The notes under the pieces are model-generated. The model was not told the DNA's origin, did not search any database, and worked only from the letters and a program-made list of their open reading frames with translations. From assembly GCA_027056485.1 (NCBI GenBank), contig JALUKQ010000043.1, positions 1-36,518 on the forward strand: a stretch of DNA of 36,518 bases, given 5' to 3'. Positions 1,278 through 11,248 of this stretch are shown in pieces (the stretch's first letter is position 1; each line of letters begins with the position of its first letter). The position numbers and the translations under genes are program-made. Source of the stretch: Campylobacteraceae bacterium (GTDB lineage: Bacteria; Campylobacterota; Campylobacteria; Campylobacterales; Sulfurovaceae).

Positions 1278-1811
1278 TTATTTCCACTTTACTTCTAAAT
1301 GATTTCTTTTCCATGCTTCAATACCTCCTAGCATATTAACAGCATCAAATCCATTGTCTCGTAAAAGTTTGGTTGCAGTTACACTTCTATTCCCTGTATG
1401 ACAATAAACTACTATCTCTTTAGATTTATCTAAACGATTTAAATTCTGACTTAAAACTTGAAGTGGTATTAAAACTGAATTAGCAATTTTTCCATCATGA
1501 GGTATCTCTTTTGCTGTTCTTACATCTAAAATGAATAGATTCGGATTTTCTAAAATTTTATCAAAAACCTCTAAAGGTTCAATATTAAAAGATTTTGTAC
1601 TTCTGATAGAAATAGGTTCCTCTATATAAGGTATTGCATTAGATACAGCTCTTCTCTCAGTGATATGCCTTAACTCATAAGTTGGAACTTCTTCATAGTA
1701 TTTAATAGGCTCTTCATTTATAATTTGTGTTCTACTATCTATTTTTATGGTTTTACTACATCCCAAAAATAAGAGACTCGATAGTGGAATCCATATTAAT
1801 TTATTTTTCAT
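1278..1811 (-). CDS. Rhodanese-domain lipoprotein
   Basis: This is a predicted lipoprotein with a single rhodanese domain, a fold that carries sulfur as a persulfide on one cysteine. The N-terminus has a signal peptide ending in a lipobox (LFLGC, lipidated Cys about residue 18). After a linker of about 60 residues, the rhodanese domain fills the C-terminal half: FILDVRTAKEIPHDGKI, then the active loop CHTGNRS with the catalytic Cys near residue 137, then GGIEAWK. An ATG four codons earlier (1823) is possible, but the GGAG lies inside those codons and is correctly spaced for the ATG at 1811. It follows the M14 peptidase gene by 38 nt and is probably cotranscribed with it. The likely site is periplasmic sulfur transfer; the partner is unknown. 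Confidence 0.85.
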   Translation of the reverse strand: MKNKLIWIPLSSLLFLGCSKTIKIDSRTQIINEEPIKYYEEVPTYELRHITERRAVSNAIPYIEEPISIRSTKSFNIEPLEVFDKILENPNLFILDVRTAKEIPHDGKIANSVLIPLQVLSQNLNRLDKSKEIVVYCHTGNRSVTATKLLRDNGFDAVNMLGGIEAWKRNHLEVKWK

Positions 1812-1849
1812 AAAATTCTCCATTTTTTAAATTATTAGTTTTTACAAAA

Positions 1850-4426
1850 CTATTTTGCTTTGTAAAATATACTTGATGGTTGAGAGTAGTTGGGGACATT
1901 ATCATAGGTAAACACAGCAAAATACTTATCTATATTGGTTGAACCATAGTTGTCAAAGGTGTAGTTGTCTGAACCAGCATAGAGTTTAACTCCATCAAAT
2001 GGGTTTTTAGGTGTGTGCCAACGGTTTCTTACAACATAATAACCTACCAAATCATCATCTTCTACCTTGTCCCATGTTATCTTAACCAATTTGTTTTCTA
2101 TGGTGGTTTTAAGATTAACAGGTGATGGTAGTGGAAACTTTCTACGTTTTATGTATTTTACTTTTAGTTTAGCAGCTTTTTTACCATCGTATGCCCAGTT
2201 TATAACATGGTCACGGCTCAATACAGATGTAGGACGAATAATGAATTTTGCTTCATCTCCTGCTCTTTGTTTCTCTTCAAGAGCCAGTTTTGAGTAGTGG
2301 TCAAAAATAAAATGATGTTTCTTCTTTGAACCAAGTTCTGCTGAACTTACTTCATAACCAATAAACTCTATACGTTCTCTGTCTTTAATATCTTGATAGC
2401 TAAACTCTTCTAAGTCAATAAACTCAACGTTATAGCGAATGTCTACCTCTTTTTTAACGGTAGAGGTGTTTGATATCTCTATCCAAGCATCGGTAATAAT
2501 TGCTTCATCAGGATTGGGTAGAGAGGTAAGGTCAAAAGACATGTAGGCGTAAATTTTTTCATCATCTTTGTTAAATCCACAGGCTAATGTTTCATGTGTA
2601 ATGTCATCTGGTGCAATGGTCATAGAGTTTTGTAACTCTATACTTACTTTATGACTAGGAACGGTATATTTTATGTCTATAGATGGTCGGTAGTGTAAGC
2701 CACCACCTTGAGTTCCATAACCAATGTCAAAGACCATTATTTGTGAGTCTCTTCCTACAGGTAGTTTGGTAGGACCTGCTAGTTTTAGTGTTATTTGTCC
2801 TTTTTTTACCTTTTTTTGAACCATTCTATTTTCAAACTCGTTACAGTCCCAATGTGACCAGATACCTTGTGTTAGCTTTTCCGAAGGAATACTTGCACCC
2901 AGTGTCTTTACATGTTTAGCTTTATGTATTTGCTCAAAGTCACGTATGTTTGAAACACTCTCTTGGTCTATGACAGAGAGAGACCATTCACCAAACTTTT
3001 CTATTTTAGCCGATACACGGTTTAGAGGGTAGAGAGAAATTTTAGTATCTAAAACAATAGCATCTTTAGGAATACTAGATAAATCAAAAGTCATAACCCC
3101 ATAAGATATACCTCGACCTTCACTTACACCAACTTTTAAGGAGTTCACACCAAAGTGTCCATGGTTTGCTTCGGGTGACTTCTCAGCAACATAACCAATC
3201 TCTGAAGCGTTAGGAAAGACAGTTCTTGAAAATTCATATTCATCGAGAAGCGTTTTTAACTTTACTTTTGGTGCATAAGGAGATTTGATTTTTGTTAGTT
3301 TATCAACAGCTCTTATGTAATAAAAGTACATAGTACCACTCTTTAGGTTCTCATCTATAAAGTTTTTGTTGCAAGTAACTCCAATAAGAGATGATTCATT
3401 ACATGCCATTTTGTTGTTGAGGTTTCTATATATTTTAAAGTATACATTTGGATTCTCTTCATACTCCCAATTTAGAGAACAGGTATCATTCGAAAAGCTC
3501 TCTATATGGAAGTTTTCTACTCTTTTAGGTGCTGCCTTTCCATAATTACTAGCCTCACTAAGTGCATAGAGTAGGGCAGGGATATTCTCTTGTACTGACT
3601 CTGACATGTTTTGAATATAGTCTGGAATGTTTCGTGTTCCAACCTCTACAACTATAGCGATGATACCTTTTGAGTAGTAGTACTCACGACCAGAACCTGA
3701 AATAAGCTTTGTAGGTGGCTTTCCACGGTTTATTCCATACTGTCGTCCTGTTACTTTATGAATATGGTAGTTCATGTTTGCACAAAGTGCATTCATGTCT
3801 GTTCCTTCTATTTCACTCTCATGGTTGAATTTGTGTGCAGGAAAAAATACATTTCCTTGTGAGTGGTAGTCTAATGCTATGGTAATATTTTCATGCTCAT
3901 CTACAAACTTTTTTATGGCTAGTGTTTCAGGCTCCGAAAATGGATGAGGTCCACCATAAACATTGCTAGAGGTATTGGTAGATTTTCGGTAACCTACTGA
4001 AAAGTTACGATTTAGGTCAACTCCAAAGGTTCCGTCACCATTGTCTCGTCTATTTTTTCTCCAAAAAGAGAAGTGTTTACGTGAGTATTCAAACCCATCA
4101 GGGTTAAGACAAGGAACGATATATAGAGTATTTTTACTTAGTGTCTCTAGTATCTCTGGGTTATTGGTATGGTTTTTAAGAATGTAGTCTATAAAGTCAA
4201 TAGCCAGTTCATGACCAATCCACTCACGAGCATGAGCAGTTCCTGTATAGAGTAGCGCAGGTTTTAGTTTTGCATAGGCAACATTTAGCGAGATGGTTGC
4301 AAGTAAGATTTCTCGACCTTCCCATGTAGTACCAATATTTTCTAAGCTAATAATATCTGGATATTTTTCAACACATGCTTCAAGAAAGGCACAGCTCTCA
4401 TCATAAGATTTATATTGTTGTTTCAT
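1850..4426 (-). CDS. M14-family zinc carboxypeptidase with FN3-like and DNRLRE-like modules
   Basis: This is an 858-residue metallocarboxypeptidase of the carboxypeptidase A type, expected to release C-terminal amino acids. The peptidase domain spans about 1-295. It shows the zinc ligands H65 and E68 (HAREW) and H188 (DYHSQG), the substrate-binding NPDGFEYSR and DLNRNF segments, and the catalytic glutamate E261 in VVEVGTRN. Next come a fibronectin type III-like domain (about 300-395), two beta-rich segments resembling DNRLRE domains (about 400-590 and 595-760, each with an MTFDLSSIP or MSFDLTSLP motif) and a second FN3-like domain to the end. The start is supported by AGGGGA just upstream. 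No signal peptide or membrane segment is visible, which is odd for a protein built from extracellular-type modules. It heads a transcript with the rhodanese gene and lies next to the ATP-grasp/M20 operon. Confidence 0.88.
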   Translation of the reverse strand: MKQQYKSYDESCAFLEACVEKYPDIISLENIGTTWEGREILLATISLNVAYAKLKPALLYTGTAHAREWIGHELAIDFIDYILKNHTNNPEILETLSKNTLYIVPCLNPDGFEYSRKHFSFWRKNRRDNGDGTFGVDLNRNFSVGYRKSTNTSSNVYGGPHPFSEPETLAIKKFVDEHENITIALDYHSQGNVFFPAHKFNHESEIEGTDMNALCANMNYHIHKVTGRQYGINRGKPPTKLISGSGREYYYSKGIIAIVVEVGTRNIPDYIQNMSESVQENIPALLYALSEASNYGKAAPKRVENFHIESFSNDTCSLNWEYEENPNVYFKIYRNLNNKMACNESSLIGVTCNKNFIDENLKSGTMYFYYIRAVDKLTKIKSPYAPKVKLKTLLDEYEFSRTVFPNASEIGYVAEKSPEANHGHFGVNSLKVGVSEGRGISYGVMTFDLSSIPKDAIVLDTKISLYPLNRVSAKIEKFGEWSLSVIDQESVSNIRDFEQIHKAKHVKTLGASIPSEKLTQGIWSHWDCNEFENRMVQKKVKKGQITLKLAGPTKLPVGRDSQIMVFDIGYGTQGGGLHYRPSIDIKYTVPSHKVSIELQNSMTIAPDDITHETLACGFNKDDEKIYAYMSFDLTSLPNPDEAIITDAWIEISNTSTVKKEVDIRYNVEFIDLEEFSYQDIKDRERIEFIGYEVSSAELGSKKKHHFIFDHYSKLALEEKQRAGDEAKFIIRPTSVLSRDHVINWAYDGKKAAKLKVKYIKRRKFPLPSPVNLKTTIENKLVKITWDKVEDDDLVGYYVVRNRWHTPKNPFDGVKLYAGSDNYTFDNYGSTNIDKYFAVFTYDNVPNYSQPSSIFYKAK

Positions 4427-4602: not shown

Positions 4603-6015
4603 TTATTTAGTTTTATATTCATCCCATACTGCAGTGATTTTCTCAACCATTTTTATTTTGATACCTTTTACATTTTCTAATGCTCTTGGATCCATCTCTA
4701 AAATGTTAATTAACTCTTCATGGTTATAGAAATTTAATATTTTCTTTAACTTTTTCTCTGTTAACCCTTTTACTGAAAGTAGTAAAATCTCTAACTGATC
4801 TTCAGAAATCTCAATAGCTAAAGAGGCTTCATCACCACTTGGTATAGGTGCTTCTTCTTTTTTAAGAGCTGGAACTTTCATAGATTTTATGTTTTTAAGT
4901 GCAAAACGGTCTTGGTAATTCCATTTTTCACTTGGCCACTCTTCAAATGTTCTCTCTTTTACATCAAACATTTTATAAGCAGAGTCAAGTTCATGTAGGT
5001 AGTATTCACCCTCTCCATACATTTTTTTCTTGTTCCCAAAGTAAGAACCATCGTAAGAAGCGTTATATTTACCAAAAGTAATATGTCTCATGGTTCTAAG
5101 CAAATCTGGAGAGATTTTTCCTAGCTCTTCCCAGTTAAACATAGGCATATGTGGCTTTCTAAATCTTCCTTCACTTAGACTCCACATTAGGTATTGACCT
5201 ATCCAGTCTCTGATGTATGGGAAGGCAGCAAAAGCAGTTGCACACTCTAAGATGCGAACTTTACCATCTTTACCGTAGGCAACATCACATGCCCAATATT
5301 CAGCATTAGCAGCTTTACTTACACGAACAGCAAGGTCAAGAACATTTTTAGGTACATCCATGTAGTCCATGCTTCCACCTTGAGAAGTATTGGTTAACCA
5401 CTCACCTTCAGGAGCTCTTCTCCAAAATGCACATACAGGTTTATGACCAATAAGCATTACACGAATATCAGCTTCCATTGGAACAAAATCTTGGAAATAC
5501 ATTGGGTGGTACTTTTTCTTATCGTACAACTTTTTTGCTTCTGCATATGAGTCTACTTTATGTACAAAGTATCCACCATAGTTAGATGGACCATAAGATT
5601 TTTTAACTATCTTTGGATACTCAGTCTTTTTTAGAAACTTATCACCATTTTCTCTGTTGTAGTAGATATATGTTTTAGGAATTGGTAGATTATATTTCCA
5701 TGCAAAACGGGTTACATTCTCTTTTGATTTGTTAGAGAACTGAGTATCAAGAGATGGAATAAAACGTACATGAGGAAGTTCTCTGGCTATCTCTCTAAAT
5801 GTTTCATAGGCAGTTGCAGGAATATTTCCTATAAGTACATCTATTTTTTTATCTTTTACCTCTTGGATAAATCTATCTTTATCTTTCCCCCAGTGGTATG
5901 TTACTGTCTCTATTTTGTTTGGCCAACCCTTAAAGTTAGAGTAGTCGAAAAATCTTAATACATAATCCATGTATAAGAATCCTAGTTTTGGTAGTTCTTT
6001 ATTGCTTAAGCCCAT
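4603..6015 (-). CDS. ATP-grasp ligase with C-terminal helix-hairpin-helix domain
   Basis: This is a 470-residue ATP-grasp protein of the RimK/glutathione-synthetase type, a family that joins a carboxylate to an amine through an acyl-phosphate. The N-terminal about 95 residues form the pre-ATP-grasp region. The ATP-grasp fold runs about 95-270, with ATP-binding lysine K138 (KIVKKSYGPSNYGG), FVPMEADIRVMLIG, the NTSQGGS loop (209-215) and metal ligands D244 and E257. The usual Asn two residues after the last Glu is replaced by Ala (ECAT), so one metal ligand seems changed. After a linker, residues about 400-468 carry two helix-hairpin-helix-like repeats (LLLSVKGLTEKKLKKIL and LENVKGIKIKMVEKI), as in RuvA- or UvrC-type non-specific DNA-binding domains. 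It is the last gene of the operon with the 305-residue ATP-grasp (22-nt gap) and the M20 peptidase. The substrate is unknown. Confidence 0.8.
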   Translation of the reverse strand: MGLSNKELPKLGFLYMDYVLRFFDYSNFKGWPNKIETVTYHWGKDKDRFIQEVKDKKIDVLIGNIPATAYETFREIARELPHVRFIPSLDTQFSNKSKENVTRFAWKYNLPIPKTYIYYNRENGDKFLKKTEYPKIVKKSYGPSNYGGYFVHKVDSYAEAKKLYDKKKYHPMYFQDFVPMEADIRVMLIGHKPVCAFWRRAPEGEWLTNTSQGGSMDYMDVPKNVLDLAVRVSKAANAEYWACDVAYGKDGKVRILECATAFAAFPYIRDWIGQYLMWSLSEGRFRKPHMPMFNWEELGKISPDLLRTMRHITFGKYNASYDGSYFGNKKKMYGEGEYYLHELDSAYKMFDVKERTFEEWPSEKWNYQDRFALKNIKSMKVPALKKEEAPIPSGDEASLAIEISEDQLEILLLSVKGLTEKKLKKILNFYNHEELINILEMDPRALENVKGIKIKMVEKITAVWDEYKTK

Positions 6016-6037
6016 TATTGTCTATTTCCTTTGTCTG

Positions 6038-6949
6038 TTATTTTTTTCTTTTAGTTTTTTGGTCTATTAAATCAACGATTAAATCAATCTTCTTATCGTT
6101 AAAGTTAAGACCCATTTTCTCTTGTTCTGGTGTTGCAAATGCTGGTATTCCATTTACTTCAAGTACCACGTACTCTTCTTTTTCTTGGTCGTAAATAATA
6201 TCAATACCAGCAATATCAGCCCCACATGCTTTGGCTGCTCTGGTTGCTATGTCTACTATCTCATCGTTTGCTTCTCTCATAAAGACAGAACCACCAGAAG
6301 TGATGTTTGTTCTCCAATCATCACCACCAGCTTTTCGTCCATAGCACCCTACAAACTGACCATCTACAATGTCTACTCTAAAGTCGGTGTTGTCATACTG
6401 TATGAACTTTTCAACAAAAAAGTAACGTAAATCCATTTGGTTAAGAAATGGCATAAGCATGTCTAAGTTTGCTTCGCTCTCTATTTTAGTGAGACCAACA
6501 CCACCCCAACCATCGGTTGGTTTATAGACCATTTTGTCCCATTTTTTTATAATCTTTCTAAGCTCATCACCATCATCACGGTGGCAAAGACGATAGTCAG
6601 CAGTCCTAATGCCACTATTTCTCAATATAAATGAAGTATGAAATTTATCTTCTGTTAATGAAAATGCATCATAGGAGTTAATCATAGGTATTACACGATT
6701 GAGTGCTTGATACAAATAGGTTTGATATATGGTCTGTTCACCAGCATTGTAAGAGAAAAAGAGGTCAAGCTTATTGAGCTTAACTTTGTTGTGAACGATA
6801 TTCCCATTTTTAGCTGTAGCATGACGTAAGTTTACGTTGTCTATAGTTTTAATGTCACGTTCTTTTAATTTTGCTTTTATTTTTTTACCAATAGCTTCCC
6901 CACCACTATTTTGGTAAAGCCACATACCGATTGTTCGTTTATCTGCCAT
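6038..6949 (-). CDS. RimK-like ATP-grasp ligase
   Basis: This is an ATP-grasp amide-bond ligase of about 303 residues, shaped like RimK or glutathione synthetase. Numbered from the ATG at 6955, it shows the ATP-binding K145 with glycine loop (YKPTDGWGGVG), FRVDIVDGQFVGCYGRKAGG, the WRTNITSGGS loop, and metal ligands D252 (GIDII), E266 and N268 (LEVNG). All catalytic features are therefore intact, unlike its neighbour. The start is placed at the second ATG (6949), because AAGGAG lies only 1 nt before the first ATG but 7 nt before the second. It is the middle gene of a tight operon, 16 nt after the M20 peptidase stop and 22 nt before the ATP-grasp-HhH gene. The amino acid added and the acceptor cannot be read from sequence. 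Confidence 0.85.
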   Translation of the reverse strand: MADKRTIGMWLYQNSGGEAIGKKIKAKLKERDIKTIDNVNLRHATAKNGNIVHNKVKLNKLDLFFSYNAGEQTIYQTYLYQALNRVIPMINSYDAFSLTEDKFHTSFILRNSGIRTADYRLCHRDDGDELRKIIKKWDKMVYKPTDGWGGVGLTKIESEANLDMLMPFLNQMDLRYFFVEKFIQYDNTDFRVDIVDGQFVGCYGRKAGGDDWRTNITSGGSVFMREANDEIVDIATRAAKACGADIAGIDIIYDQEKEEYVVLEVNGIPAFATPEQEKMGLNFNDKKIDLIVDLIDQKTKRKK

Positions 6950-6965
6950 ATTCATTCTCCTTAAA

Positions 6966-8066
6966 TTAAAATTGTTTAAACTTTTGATGATACGTTAGTA
7001 TTTTACTCATCAACTCTATTCTCTGCTCAAAACTACTTTTTAATGCTCTTTCATTTACTGTATGGTCACCATCCCCAAAAGGTCCAAAACCATCGAGTGT
7101 AGTCACCCCTTGTGAAGCGATGATATTCGCATCAGATACACCACCTCGTTGTTCAGTTAGAAGAATTGTATCTGATAGGGTTTCTATTTGTTTGATGAGT
7201 GTCAATTGTTCATCATTTGGTTCCATTACATCTCTTTGAATCAGTCCAGAAAGAGTTGCTTTTGTTCCTTCTACATAAGAGGTATTTGTAATTTTCTTTA
7301 AAGCATCTAAAAGTCTGTCTCTTTCAGAGTTTTGGGTATAGCGTAATTCTAAAAGTAGGGTAGCCGTAGGCGAAATAGTATTGGCACCAATTCCACCTTC
7401 TATTTTTCCTACATTTACTGTTGTTCCTATTTTTAAGTTGGTAAGCTTTGTAAGTTCTATAAGTTTATGAGCAGCTTCAAGGTTTGCATTTATTCCTGCT
7501 TCATAACGTACCCCAGCATGAGAAGCTTTTCCTTCTATGCTTATGCTAAAAGTTCCTACACCTTTACGACCTGTAACCACTTCTAGTTTTTCTCCTGCTG
7601 CCTCAAAAACAAAACAGACATCATAATCTTTTGCAAGTTTAGAACTAAGCATTTTACTGTCGTCAGAACCTGTCTCTTCGTCTGATACGAGTAGAATGTC
7701 TATATTTTCTATTTTTCCATTTTTTTCATAAACATTTCGTAGTGCTTGAAGGGCAACCATATTACCCCCTTTCATGTCACATACACCAGGTCCATATACC
7801 CACTCTTCATCTTCTGAATAGTTTTCAAACTTTCCTTGAGGAAAAACAGTGTCGTTATGTCCTAAAAGTAAAATTTTTATGCCATCAGTTTTTGGGCTAA
7901 TATATAAGTTATGGTTACCTATATTTTCACGTTTATAACAGATATTTTCAAAGCCTAAAGCTTCAAACCATTGTGTCATATAAGTAGATATTAAATCTAC
8001 ACCAGCTTTGTTTTTTGTATATGAATTGATATTAATAATGGTCTCAAGATCTTTAAAATATGTCAT
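6966..8066 (-). CDS. M20-family metallopeptidase, carboxypeptidase G2-like
   Basis: This is a cytoplasmic di-zinc peptidase of the M20 family. It most resembles carboxypeptidase G2-type enzymes, which remove a C-terminal glutamate or similar amino acid. Zinc ligands and catalytic residues are all visible: H70 (GHNDTVFP), D97 (YGPGVCDMKGG), catalytic E130 and ligand E131 (SDEETGS), E155, and H335 (GDGDHTVNER). The dimerisation lid carries the SHAG motif (EGKASHAGVRYEAG). Length (366 residues) is normal and there is no signal peptide. It is the first gene of the operon feeding the two ATP-grasp ligases, so its substrate may be the product of those ligases. That functional link is inference. The start has only a weak AAAGA upstream. 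Confidence 0.87.
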   Translation of the reverse strand: MTYFKDLETIININSYTKNKAGVDLISTYMTQWFEALGFENICYKRENIGNHNLYISPKTDGIKILLLGHNDTVFPQGKFENYSEDEEWVYGPGVCDMKGGNMVALQALRNVYEKNGKIENIDILLVSDEETGSDDSKMLSSKLAKDYDVCFVFEAAGEKLEVVTGRKGVGTFSISIEGKASHAGVRYEAGINANLEAAHKLIELTKLTNLKIGTTVNVGKIEGGIGANTISPTATLLLELRYTQNSERDRLLDALKKITNTSYVEGTKATLSGLIQRDVMEPNDEQLTLIKQIETLSDTILLTEQRGGVSDANIIASQGVTTLDGFGPFGDGDHTVNERALKSSFEQRIELMSKILTYHQKFKQF

Positions 8067-8358: not shown

Positions 8359-11202
8359 TCATCTTCGACGAGATTTTTTCTCGCCTCCTGTTTCTACGTT
8401 TATACTACCTTTTCCACCATTTCTAGCCCCTCTGTTGTTACTTCGACGTCCTCTTCGTCCTTTGGTGAAACAGGCATCACAGATGGAAAATCGGTAGGTG
8501 AAGTCTAGGCTTTTTCCACATCGGCTACATTTTTTTACAAAGTTTCCTTGTTTTAAAGAGGCTTCAATAAAATTGTTTAAGCGTACTCTGGCTTGTAGGG
8601 CTTTTTCTACTTGTGGGAAGAGTTCAGTAAATTTAAATGAGAGCCATAGGTAAAGAGAAATCTCTCGTACTCGGTCTTCGGCATTGAGCATCATCTCATT
8701 GGTTTGGGCGAACTTTGGTAGGTCTCTTGGGGGAATGTACTCAACGGTTAAACCTGCTTCTATCTGTTTTATGTAACGGTGAAAGACCGACTCAATGTAT
8801 GGTGACGATATGGAAGCTGGGGCACAAGCTAAGTGGAAACGGGTTTTTAGGTCTAAGTGGTATTCATCTACAATGGCTGCAATTTCTAACATTGAGTCAA
8901 TGTTGGCAGCGACAAAAGGTCCTTCAAACTCCATGTTGTCAGCAAAAAAGTTTAAAATGATTGAGAGATTTTCTGTCTCTAAAATTTCACCTATGAGCAT
9001 GACATGTTCTAAACTTGCCATAACGGAGACGGGGAGTTCTAACGTAGGGAGAGGTTGGTAAAACTTAGAGCTGATGGTCTCTAAACATTTTTCATCTAAA
9101 GCACCAATGTATCCGACCTCTTCTAAACCGTAACGACCTGCACGACCTGAGATTTGGGCTACTTCTGTAGGGAGAAGCTCTCTTCTTCTTAAGCCATCAA
9201 ATTTGTTGTCTTTTGAGAAGAGTAGGGTTTTTATGGGTAGGTTTAAGCCCATGGCAATGGCATCGGTGGCGACGAGTATTTCCGATTTTCCTTCTCTAAA
9301 CCGTCTGGCTTCTTCTCTTCTTACTTCGGGGGAGAGGTTTCCGTAAACGACCGAGACTTCATAGCGTTGGGAGAGTTGTTGTCGCAAACCTAAAACATCT
9401 CGTCTTGAAAAAGCAATGATGGCTGTTCCTGCTTCTATCTGTTTAATAGGGGTAGGTTGGGTAAGAAGCTTAAGTTCATTTTTACGTTCAAAATGTACGA
9501 CGCTTAGTGGCTCATCTAGGTATTCACACAACTCTGTAACAGCAGCTAAAACATCAGGAGAACCTGTAAGTATAACTTTTTTAGCAGGAGCTCCTATGAG
9601 TGCATTTGCCCATGCCCAACCACGGTCACGGTCGTTTATCATCTGTATTTCATCTATGACACAGACATCTACATCGACAGTACTATTCATCATTTCTATG
9701 GTAGAGCTTATATGTGTTGACTCTTCGTCTATAATCTCCTCTTCACCTGTAATGAGTGAAACTCCCACACCTTTAGCTTTTAGGTTTTCATACCCCTCTA
9801 GTGCTAAAAGACGTAGTGGAGCAAGGTAATAACCTGTGTCAGCATTTTCTAATGCTTTGAGTGCTTCGTAGGTTTTACCCGAGTTGGTGGGACCGACATG
9901 AAAAAAAATTTCACGGTTAAGTAATCTTGCCAAAGGGAAAAGATTTTTGAAGTCACGAATAGTTTTAGCCAATAGCTCTTCTTTTCTCTTTTTCTCTTTT
10001 AGAGGTCGAATATGTTCCATAAAATGGTAAACGATTCGGCGTTTTACTTTCTCTTTGATTTTTAAGTTCAAAGAGACAGAAACTTGTGGCTCTACAAATT
10101 GTAAAATATACTTATGTACAACCTCATCTTCTAACTCTAAACCTTGTGAAAGTTTAAAGAGTTCTTCTTCTAAATTATGTATGGTTTGCTCAAAATGTAC
10201 TTTCATCTCATTTTTAATACGTGCGATGTCTTTTTCTATAGGAAGTATTTCCTCTTTCCAAATGTTATGAAAAAGTAGCTTTCGCCCATAAGAAGCAACA
10301 ACAGTATAGGGTAGCTTTTTACCATATAAGTCATAGCTTTTTTCTTTTGCTACGACAAAACTATTGCTTTGCATGGTGACACGATAGTCAGGGTCGAGTA
10401 GTAAAATGATTTCCTTTACTATACTAAGTGGAATATCTATCTCATAAAAATCATCTTCTGGAGGCATGGAGCGTATGAGTTTTATAATTTCAGGTTCAGA
10501 GAGATATTTATGCTCTTTGTTCACTCTCTCTAAAAACAGTTCTATCTCCTCTTTCTTCATGGAAACAGAAGCATCTTTTAGGGCTTCTAACGTTTTATGG
10601 ATGAGTTTGTCATCTTCGTTTAAAAGTAGATTATTCTCTATACTTGTGGTAGTAGTCAGGAGTGATTTGTAGAAAGTCTCTTCATTCATGGCAAACTCGT
10701 AAGAGTGATAAAATTCCATTTCAGAGAGGGTGTTGAACTCTACGTCTACTCTTTTTTCCCAAAGTTTCATACGCTTTTGTTGACGTAAATAGTTTAGTTT
10801 TGAAGCAATTTTATCTTCACTTATTTTGTTAAACTTGGCATCTATAAAAGCAGATAAAATTAATTGTTCCTCTTCTTTTGTATGTTTGTGTTCATTTAAA
10901 AGAGAGACAATATGTGTAACTTTATCATGTTCGTCTGACTTGGCTACTTTGACATTCATCTGTTCTAAGTAGTTAACTACGCCAAGCCTAAAGGAGGTAG
11001 TACCCTCTGACCATGCTTGACGTAAAGATCGAACCATCTCTTTTTTTGTGAGCATAGAGACTTTTAGGTCTAGAAGCATGGTTAGCTCTACTAGTACATC
11101 TTCTTCTAAAAGTTTAATACCTTCATCAAAAGGTTCTCCATTCATTAACTCTTTTATTTTATTGTTTATTTTTATTGATTGTTTTTTCTTTTTTTTTGCC
11201 AT
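8359..11202 (-). CDS. SUV3-like superfamily 2 RNA/DNA helicase
   Basis: This is an ATP-dependent helicase resembling the SUV3 branch of superfamily 2, whose mitochondrial members unwind RNA for degradation. In the 947-residue form, Walker A is at 437-445 (GPTNSGKTY, a SUV3-type signature), the DEIQ box at 517-520, then ILTGSP, and motif VI QISGRAGRYG. A long N-terminal extension (about 430 residues, charged and helical, no domain recognised) precedes the motor. The C-terminus has a four-cysteine zinc knuckle (CxxC at 892/895 and 908/911) and a basic Arg/Gly-rich tail, which suggests nucleic-acid binding. An ATG 14 codons upstream (11244) is rejected as the start because it overlaps a TATAAT -10 box, whereas the ATG at 11202 opens MAKKKKKQ. 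It is a single-gene unit divergent from the DUF3298 gene. Confidence 0.88.
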   Translation of the reverse strand: MAKKKKKQSIKINNKIKELMNGEPFDEGIKLLEEDVLVELTMLLDLKVSMLTKKEMVRSLRQAWSEGTTSFRLGVVNYLEQMNVKVAKSDEHDKVTHIVSLLNEHKHTKEEEQLILSAFIDAKFNKISEDKIASKLNYLRQQKRMKLWEKRVDVEFNTLSEMEFYHSYEFAMNEETFYKSLLTTTTSIENNLLLNEDDKLIHKTLEALKDASVSMKKEEIELFLERVNKEHKYLSEPEIIKLIRSMPPEDDFYEIDIPLSIVKEIILLLDPDYRVTMQSNSFVVAKEKSYDLYGKKLPYTVVASYGRKLLFHNIWKEEILPIEKDIARIKNEMKVHFEQTIHNLEEELFKLSQGLELEDEVVHKYILQFVEPQVSVSLNLKIKEKVKRRIVYHFMEHIRPLKEKKRKEELLAKTIRDFKNLFPLARLLNREIFFHVGPTNSGKTYEALKALENADTGYYLAPLRLLALEGYENLKAKGVGVSLITGEEEIIDEESTHISSTIEMMNSTVDVDVCVIDEIQMINDRDRGWAWANALIGAPAKKVILTGSPDVLAAVTELCEYLDEPLSVVHFERKNELKLLTQPTPIKQIEAGTAIIAFSRRDVLGLRQQLSQRYEVSVVYGNLSPEVRREEARRFREGKSEILVATDAIAMGLNLPIKTLLFSKDNKFDGLRRRELLPTEVAQISGRAGRYGLEEVGYIGALDEKCLETISSKFYQPLPTLELPVSVMASLEHVMLIGEILETENLSIILNFFADNMEFEGPFVAANIDSMLEIAAIVDEYHLDLKTRFHLACAPASISSPYIESVFHRYIKQIEAGLTVEYIPPRDLPKFAQTNEMMLNAEDRVREISLYLWLSFKFTELFPQVEKALQARVRLNNFIEASLKQGNFVKKCSRCGKSLDFTYRFSICDACFTKGRRGRRSNNRGARNGGKGSINVETGGEKKSRRR

Positions 11203-11242
11203 ATGTTTATAATCTTTATATATGTTATTTTGTAAGTTATAC

Positions 11243-11248
11243 ATTATA
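11243..11248 (-). promoter_or_regulatory. -10 box of the helicase gene
   Basis: TATAAT is read on the minus strand in GCTATAATGT. It overlaps the most upstream in-frame ATG of the helicase, so transcription would begin inside those codons and translation would start at 11202. Confidence 0.5.

Follow-up and report, generated by a model that had tools for sequence, protein, structure and literature searches.

The window analyzed here, a 36,518-nt stretch of DNA from a Campylobacteraceae bacterium, carries four neighboring genes that travel as one unit in related genomes. The genes encode two peptidases, from families M20 and M14, and two ATP-grasp ligases, here termed GraspA and GraspB. The four-gene set looks like an uncharacterized reversible labelling system, and we read it, with a probability of about 0.5, as a cytosolic writer-eraser cassette, complete in itself, for tails of acidic amino acids, most likely glutamate.

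Three of the genes had been described in the initial annotation as a tightly spaced minus-strand operon. Their arrangement was confirmed, with closely packed open reading frames separated by 10 nt (M20/GraspA) and 22 nt (GraspA/GraspB). The proposed operon was incomplete, as the M14 carboxypeptidase gene downstream of GraspB also belongs to the unit. GraspB and M14 lie 176 nt apart in the window; in about half of the relatives, M14 overlaps GraspB or is found within ∼25 nt of it. The single −10 box and hairpin end previously assigned to the three genes were not upheld, since promoter- and terminator-like matches were no more common than in shuffled sequences, and a pattern scan identified no terminator-like site after GraspB. 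The features of the unit are as follows.

6966..8066, minus strand: 366-aa M20 metallopeptidase resembling carboxypeptidase G2; proposed eraser (Pfam PF01546/PF07687)
6038..6955, minus strand: GraspA, 305 aa, RimK-like ATP-grasp ligase; proposed writer that extends the tail (PF08443; E=1.2e-19)
4603..6015, minus strand: GraspB, 470 aa, member of a distinct ATP-grasp ligase subfamily, with a C-terminal helix-hairpin-helix (HhH); proposed writer that recognizes the acceptor and starts the tail (PF08443; E=3.3e-12)
5239..5241, minus strand: GraspB A259, Ala at the EVN Asn position of RimK-type enzymes (LECATAF)
4621..4803, minus strand: GraspB C-terminal HhH module, about residues 405-465 (HHH_5; pLDDT 79-92)
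1850..4426, minus strand: M14 zinc carboxypeptidase (858 aa) carrying beta domains of the fn3/DNRLRE type; proposed eraser of acidic residues (PF00246; E=3e-56)
3686..3688, minus strand: M14 Arg247, residue setting S1' specificity (position 255 in bovine CPA)

Homologues were collected from relatives of the window and from GTDB contigs, and their neighborhoods were then compared. As some locus counts include one contig twice, genomes rather than loci were used as the statistical unit. Among 72 relatives that were ≥90% complete and ≤5% contaminated, with gene presence entered by hand from search tables, 33 carried all four genes, 34 carried none, and 5 carried one to three. Pairwise Fisher tests for co-occurrence, which ignore relatedness, gave p values of 1e-15 to 1e-18. 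Kinship alone does not account for this pattern, because five genera (g2, g4, g5, g10, and g28) each mix genomes holding all four genes with genomes holding none. GraspB was identified in 10 of 121 genomes in a phylum-wide sample, the window's own counted; the cassette is therefore accessory.

The most common gene orders were M20, GraspA, GraspB, and M14 all reading in one direction, and M20 divergent from GraspA, GraspB, and M14. Gene order was compact, frequently with overlaps, and the sequences flanking the cassette were unrelated between loci. In one Sulfurimonas-like genome (G075), the set was complete though split, with M20-GraspA-M14 at one site and GraspB beside efp at another. The spread beyond Campylobacterota consists of one record from a plasmid collection, that of Photobacterium sp. 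DA100 (Gammaproteobacteria; locus L195), which carries a complete four-gene cassette with reading frames that overlap from GraspA through M14. Its proteins share 56% (M20), 54% (GraspA), 55% (GraspB), and 52% (M14) identity with those of the window, and the catalytic residues compared in all four are conserved in it. Judging by record titles, several of the named cassette carriers are marine. The initial annotation had made its proposal depend on the genes being conserved together in relatives; they are nearly all-or-none across the 72 genomes, and the full set occurs in two phyla.

GraspA had been called an intact RimK-like ATP-grasp enzyme, a description borne out by its PF08443 match and by the retention of the listed catalytic residues. 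K145 (the ATP-grasp lysine), R193, N217, D252, E266, and N268 were invariant in 49 of 49 sequences. In a comparison of two contact positions, R193 and N268 align with R189 and N262 of Pseudomonas RimK; R189 and N262 touch the last resolved residue of bound poly-glutamate (PMC10092738). The best NCBIfam matches of GraspA were MptN (145.7 bits; cutoff, 350 bits) and the RimK family TIGR00768 (132.5 bits; cutoff, 143.4 bits), both under cutoff. CofF, the other cofactor ligase compared, reached 63.5 of 300 bits, and the LysX and glutathione synthase models also scored under their curated cutoffs. GraspB gave 80.7 bits against TIGR00768. A separate, well-characterized orthologue with an unrelated role, which the initial annotation held would count against its proposal if each gene had one, was not recovered for the ligases with any of these five models.

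The second ligase had been annotated as an ATP-grasp enzyme with a C-terminal HhH domain, and both parts of this description stood. K138, R185, N209, D244, and E257 of GraspB were invariant in 65 of 65 homologues. In the same 65 sequences, Photobacterium included, LECATAF stands in place of LEVN (ECA for EVN), so that the Asn is replaced by Ala259, a position placed by profile alignment with GraspA. Of the RimK poly-glutamate contacts Arg189 and Asn262, GraspB therefore retains the Arg only (R185; A259). As judged from these alignments, Ala for Asn is a fixed property of the GraspB subfamily and not the decay of a single copy, and with the EVN Asn lost, GraspB chemistry could differ from the usual.

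In the window's GraspB taken alone, the HhH match was weak (HHH_5; E=0.0012, under the Pfam cutoff), but HHH_5 was matched at the C terminus in 40 of 40 close homologues (E≤0.1). The AlphaFold model of GraspB had an overall pLDDT of 49, and the HhH was the sole part to be modelled confidently. In four members (L079, L123, L124, and L126), the HhH matched HHH_3, alone or together with HHH_5, and a further member, L128, gave no Pfam HhH match. The module is similar to the HhH found in RecD2-like helicases, and this holds for the Photobacterium tail as well. HhH folds bind proteins too. Retention of the HhH while its subtype switches suggests that binding to nucleic acid, or to a protein on nucleic acid, may be important for GraspB.

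The M20 protein matched Peptidase_M20 and M20_dimer in Pfam, and its nearest solved structure was carboxypeptidase G2 (CPG2; 1cg2; E=3e-26), an enzyme that acts on folates. H70, D72, D97, E130, E131, E155, and H335 were invariant in 42 of 42 sequences, so that all zinc and catalytic residues are kept, in agreement with the earlier description of a carboxypeptidase G2-like enzyme with its zinc ligands. Against NF004788, the model for carboxypeptidase G2-type glutamate carboxypeptidases, M20 scored 195.7 bits, under the curated cutoff of 349 bits. A preference for glutamate would follow only from the family.

The M14 protein carries, besides its PF00246 domain, a DNRLRE domain identified with NCBIfam. 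H65, E68, N139, R140, H188, and E261 were invariant in 41 of 41 sequences and correspond to the zinc ligands (HxxE...H), the substrate-binding Asn-Arg pair, and the catalytic Glu. The S1' pocket was aligned with the M14 family profile. In this alignment Arg247, invariant in 40 of 40 sequences plus Photobacterium, falls on an Arg of human carboxypeptidase O (5mrv; 'sgsgReyy' and 'sgssRdwa') and on an Asp in carboxypeptidase B. Arg255 of carboxypeptidase O confers specificity for acidic C termini (PMC9925722), and in a bacterial carboxypeptidase, too, a basic residue in the S1' pocket has been interpreted as a sign of acid specificity (PMC3940198). As Arg247 aligns with the specificity Arg of carboxypeptidase O, M14 is predicted to remove acidic residues. 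The structural model (pLDDT, 78.5) matched the folds of carboxypeptidases T, A, B, and O and contained large beta side domains. By eye, no signal peptide or propeptide was evident at the M14 N termini, and the enzyme should therefore act in the cytosol.

Under the preferred reading, GraspA and GraspB would activate a carboxylate at the expense of ATP and then attach an amino acid there. GraspB, assisted by its HhH module, would probably recognize the acceptor and start the tail, and GraspA would extend it. M20 and M14 would trim residues back from the free C-terminal end, with Arg247 tuning M14 to acidic residues. We infer glutamate as the tail residue, the division into starter and extender, and reversibility in the cell; glutamate is supported by the nearest ligase families, MptN and RimK, both of which are glutamate ligases. 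A macromolecular acceptor is slightly preferred in view of the HhH and of the large side domains in M14, and because of the HhH a nucleic-acid-associated protein is slightly favored. The most specific form of the proposal is reversible glutamylation of a nucleic-acid-bound protein, started by the HhH ATP-grasp with its altered active site, lengthened by the RimK-like ligase, and trimmed by the two metallopeptidases, which belong to different families, in a parallel invention of tubulin logic on an interphylum cassette; we regard this form as possible but clearly less likely than not. The more general idea of adding and removing amino acid tags had already been put forward in the initial annotation. 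It gains from the co-conservation, from ligases that score under the curated cutoffs of the families compared, and from the second peptidase, M14, whose specificity residue strengthens it by predicting the removal of acidic residues. The shared promoter and terminator that accompanied it are unsupported, and the reaction is a prediction.

The same chemistry could also yield a soluble acidic oligopeptide or a glutamate-tailed cofactor, such as an osmolyte or a coenzyme of the pterin/folate type, which the ligases would make and the peptidases recycle. This alternative is possible, though at clearly less than even odds. It draws on the marine origin of several named carriers, on the proximity of M20 to the folate-acting CPG2, and on MptN, a cofactor ligase, being the best curated family of GraspA. 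There is also a precedent in the poly-glutamate tail of methylofuran, which is built by two ATP-grasp enzymes in turn, MyfA and MyfB (PMC8141765). However, neither the GraspB HhH nor the large beta domains in M14 would be expected for a small substrate, and no other biosynthetic gene was constantly linked to the cassette in the compared neighborhoods.

Modification of EF-P by the cassette where EpmA is absent, in the manner of EpmA with beta-lysine, appears improbable. In Sulfurimonas, efp sits immediately upstream of GraspB, and three Sulfurovum species, a separate clade from Sulfurimonas on the GraspB tree, carry it upstream of M20-GraspA-GraspB; EpmA scored under cutoff in all 100 relatives. 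Nevertheless, efp is located elsewhere in most loci, and the EF-P tip (HVKPGKGAAF) is identical with and without the cassette. Although efp adjoins the cassette in two independent placements, a repeated neighbor among an estimated ∼20 placements is not improbable. RimK-style tailing of ribosomal protein S6 is very unlikely. A RimK-type ligase is present, GraspB-M14 adjoins rpsF at one locus (L043), and S6 tails are acidic; however, these tails are just as acidic in cassette-negative relatives, both ligases score under the RimK cutoffs, and a search for RimB (PF05618) came up empty in 13 of the 14 genomes with the cassette that were searched, the exception (G025) giving two matches. A LysX/ArgX-like ligase together with an M20 hydrolase would be the signature enzymes of a LysW-type carrier pathway of amino acid biosynthesis, but this explanation is largely refuted. 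LysW (TIGR01206) was identified in none of the 14 cassette-bearing genomes by a search that did recover it from 4 control genomes (3 over cutoff), scores were far under the LysX and LysW-lysine hydrolase cutoffs, and the pathway has no place for M14 and GraspB. As a candidate role in anti-phage defense, the four proteins were screened with PADLOC, which gave no match for any of them.

No paper describing the four-gene set was found in searches of the open-access literature. The writer-eraser reading can be placed beside known systems. In RimABK, RimK is an ATP-grasp glutamate ligase acting on S6 and the peptidase RimB removes the glutamates (PMC11957791). The cassette, with activities predicted from sequence, likewise pairs ATP-grasp ligase with peptidase, whereas RimK/RimB employs one ligase and a retropepsin-like aspartic endopeptidase in place of two ligases and two zinc metallopeptidases. 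The rlo operon (RloA, RloB, and RloC) also joins a RimK-like ATP-grasp, RloC, with proteases (PMC12239564), but these are secreted aspartic proteases (RloA), accompanied by a membrane transglutaminase-like protein, and the cassette has none of these. LysX/ArgX-LysK-LysW shares a RimK-like ligase and an M20 hydrolase working on a common substrate, whereas LysW was not found alongside the cassette (14 of 14 genomes), which has an extra ligase and M14.

In methylofuran synthesis (PMC8141765), MyfA and MyfB resemble the two proposed writers of the cassette in acting in sequence, and MyfB shares 33% identity with MptN, to which GraspA is nearest. The passages on these enzymes do not mention linked peptidases, and GraspB differs in carrying an HhH and in being without the EVN Asn. 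The TTLL/CCP system of tubulin combines ATP-grasp-type writers with M14 erasers and keeps starting and extending, and chain and branch, activities separate. The cassette differs in being bacterial, in having an M14 nearest carboxypeptidases T, A, B, and O, and in the addition of M20. As RimK/RimB, MyfA/MyfB, and TTLL/CCP are matched in logic and not in parts, the cassette was not filed under any of them. GraspB, a conserved ATP-grasp subfamily with an HhH in place and the standard active-site Asn replaced, raises the question of a ligase role near DNA or RNA. The cassette, which seems self-contained and has carriers in Campylobacterota as well as in Vibrionaceae, is open to study in a culturable marine bacterium. 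If true, the writer-eraser reading would add to RimK/RimB and TTLL/CCP a third architecture for the reversible tailing with glutamate.

Two genes border the cassette in the window. A SUV3-like helicase gene lies immediately upstream, and the M14 zinc carboxypeptidase gene is followed on the same strand by a gene for a rhodanese-domain protein with a lipoprotein-like N terminus:
window 8359-11244, SUV3-like helicase, 961 residues (DEXQc_Suv3, SUV3_C)
window 1278-1823, rhodanese-domain protein, 181 residues

Among relatives, the GraspB ligase gene of Sulfurimonas loci has an elongation factor P gene immediately upstream, as in these contigs and likewise in further Sulfurimonas loci:
L048, 2681-3244, elongation factor P gene
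L149, 6402-6965, elongation factor P gene
M20-GraspA-GraspB is also preceded directly by an elongation factor P gene in three Sulfurovum species, and these adjacencies represent two independent placements.

The ligase core of GraspB is conserved while its HhH subtype varies, with an HHH_3-type HhH replacing or added to HHH_5 in the C-terminal part at four loci (L079, L123, L124, and L126). Two complete cassettes were found on separate contigs (L134 and L135) of a single genome, G009 (6% contamination). The cassette was reduced to M20 and GraspA in genome G068 and to GraspA alone in genome G024 (loci L117 and L147); these partial cassettes could be informative on the role of GraspA by itself or else reflect assembly gaps.

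An argininosuccinate synthase-like gene (argG) was located immediately upstream of M20 in three related loci (L051, L053, and L058). In a Sulfurovum locus (L043, 9616-14000), a 95-residue ORF comes directly after GraspB-M14, with rpsF-ssb-rpsR next in line; the established substrate of RimK is S6.
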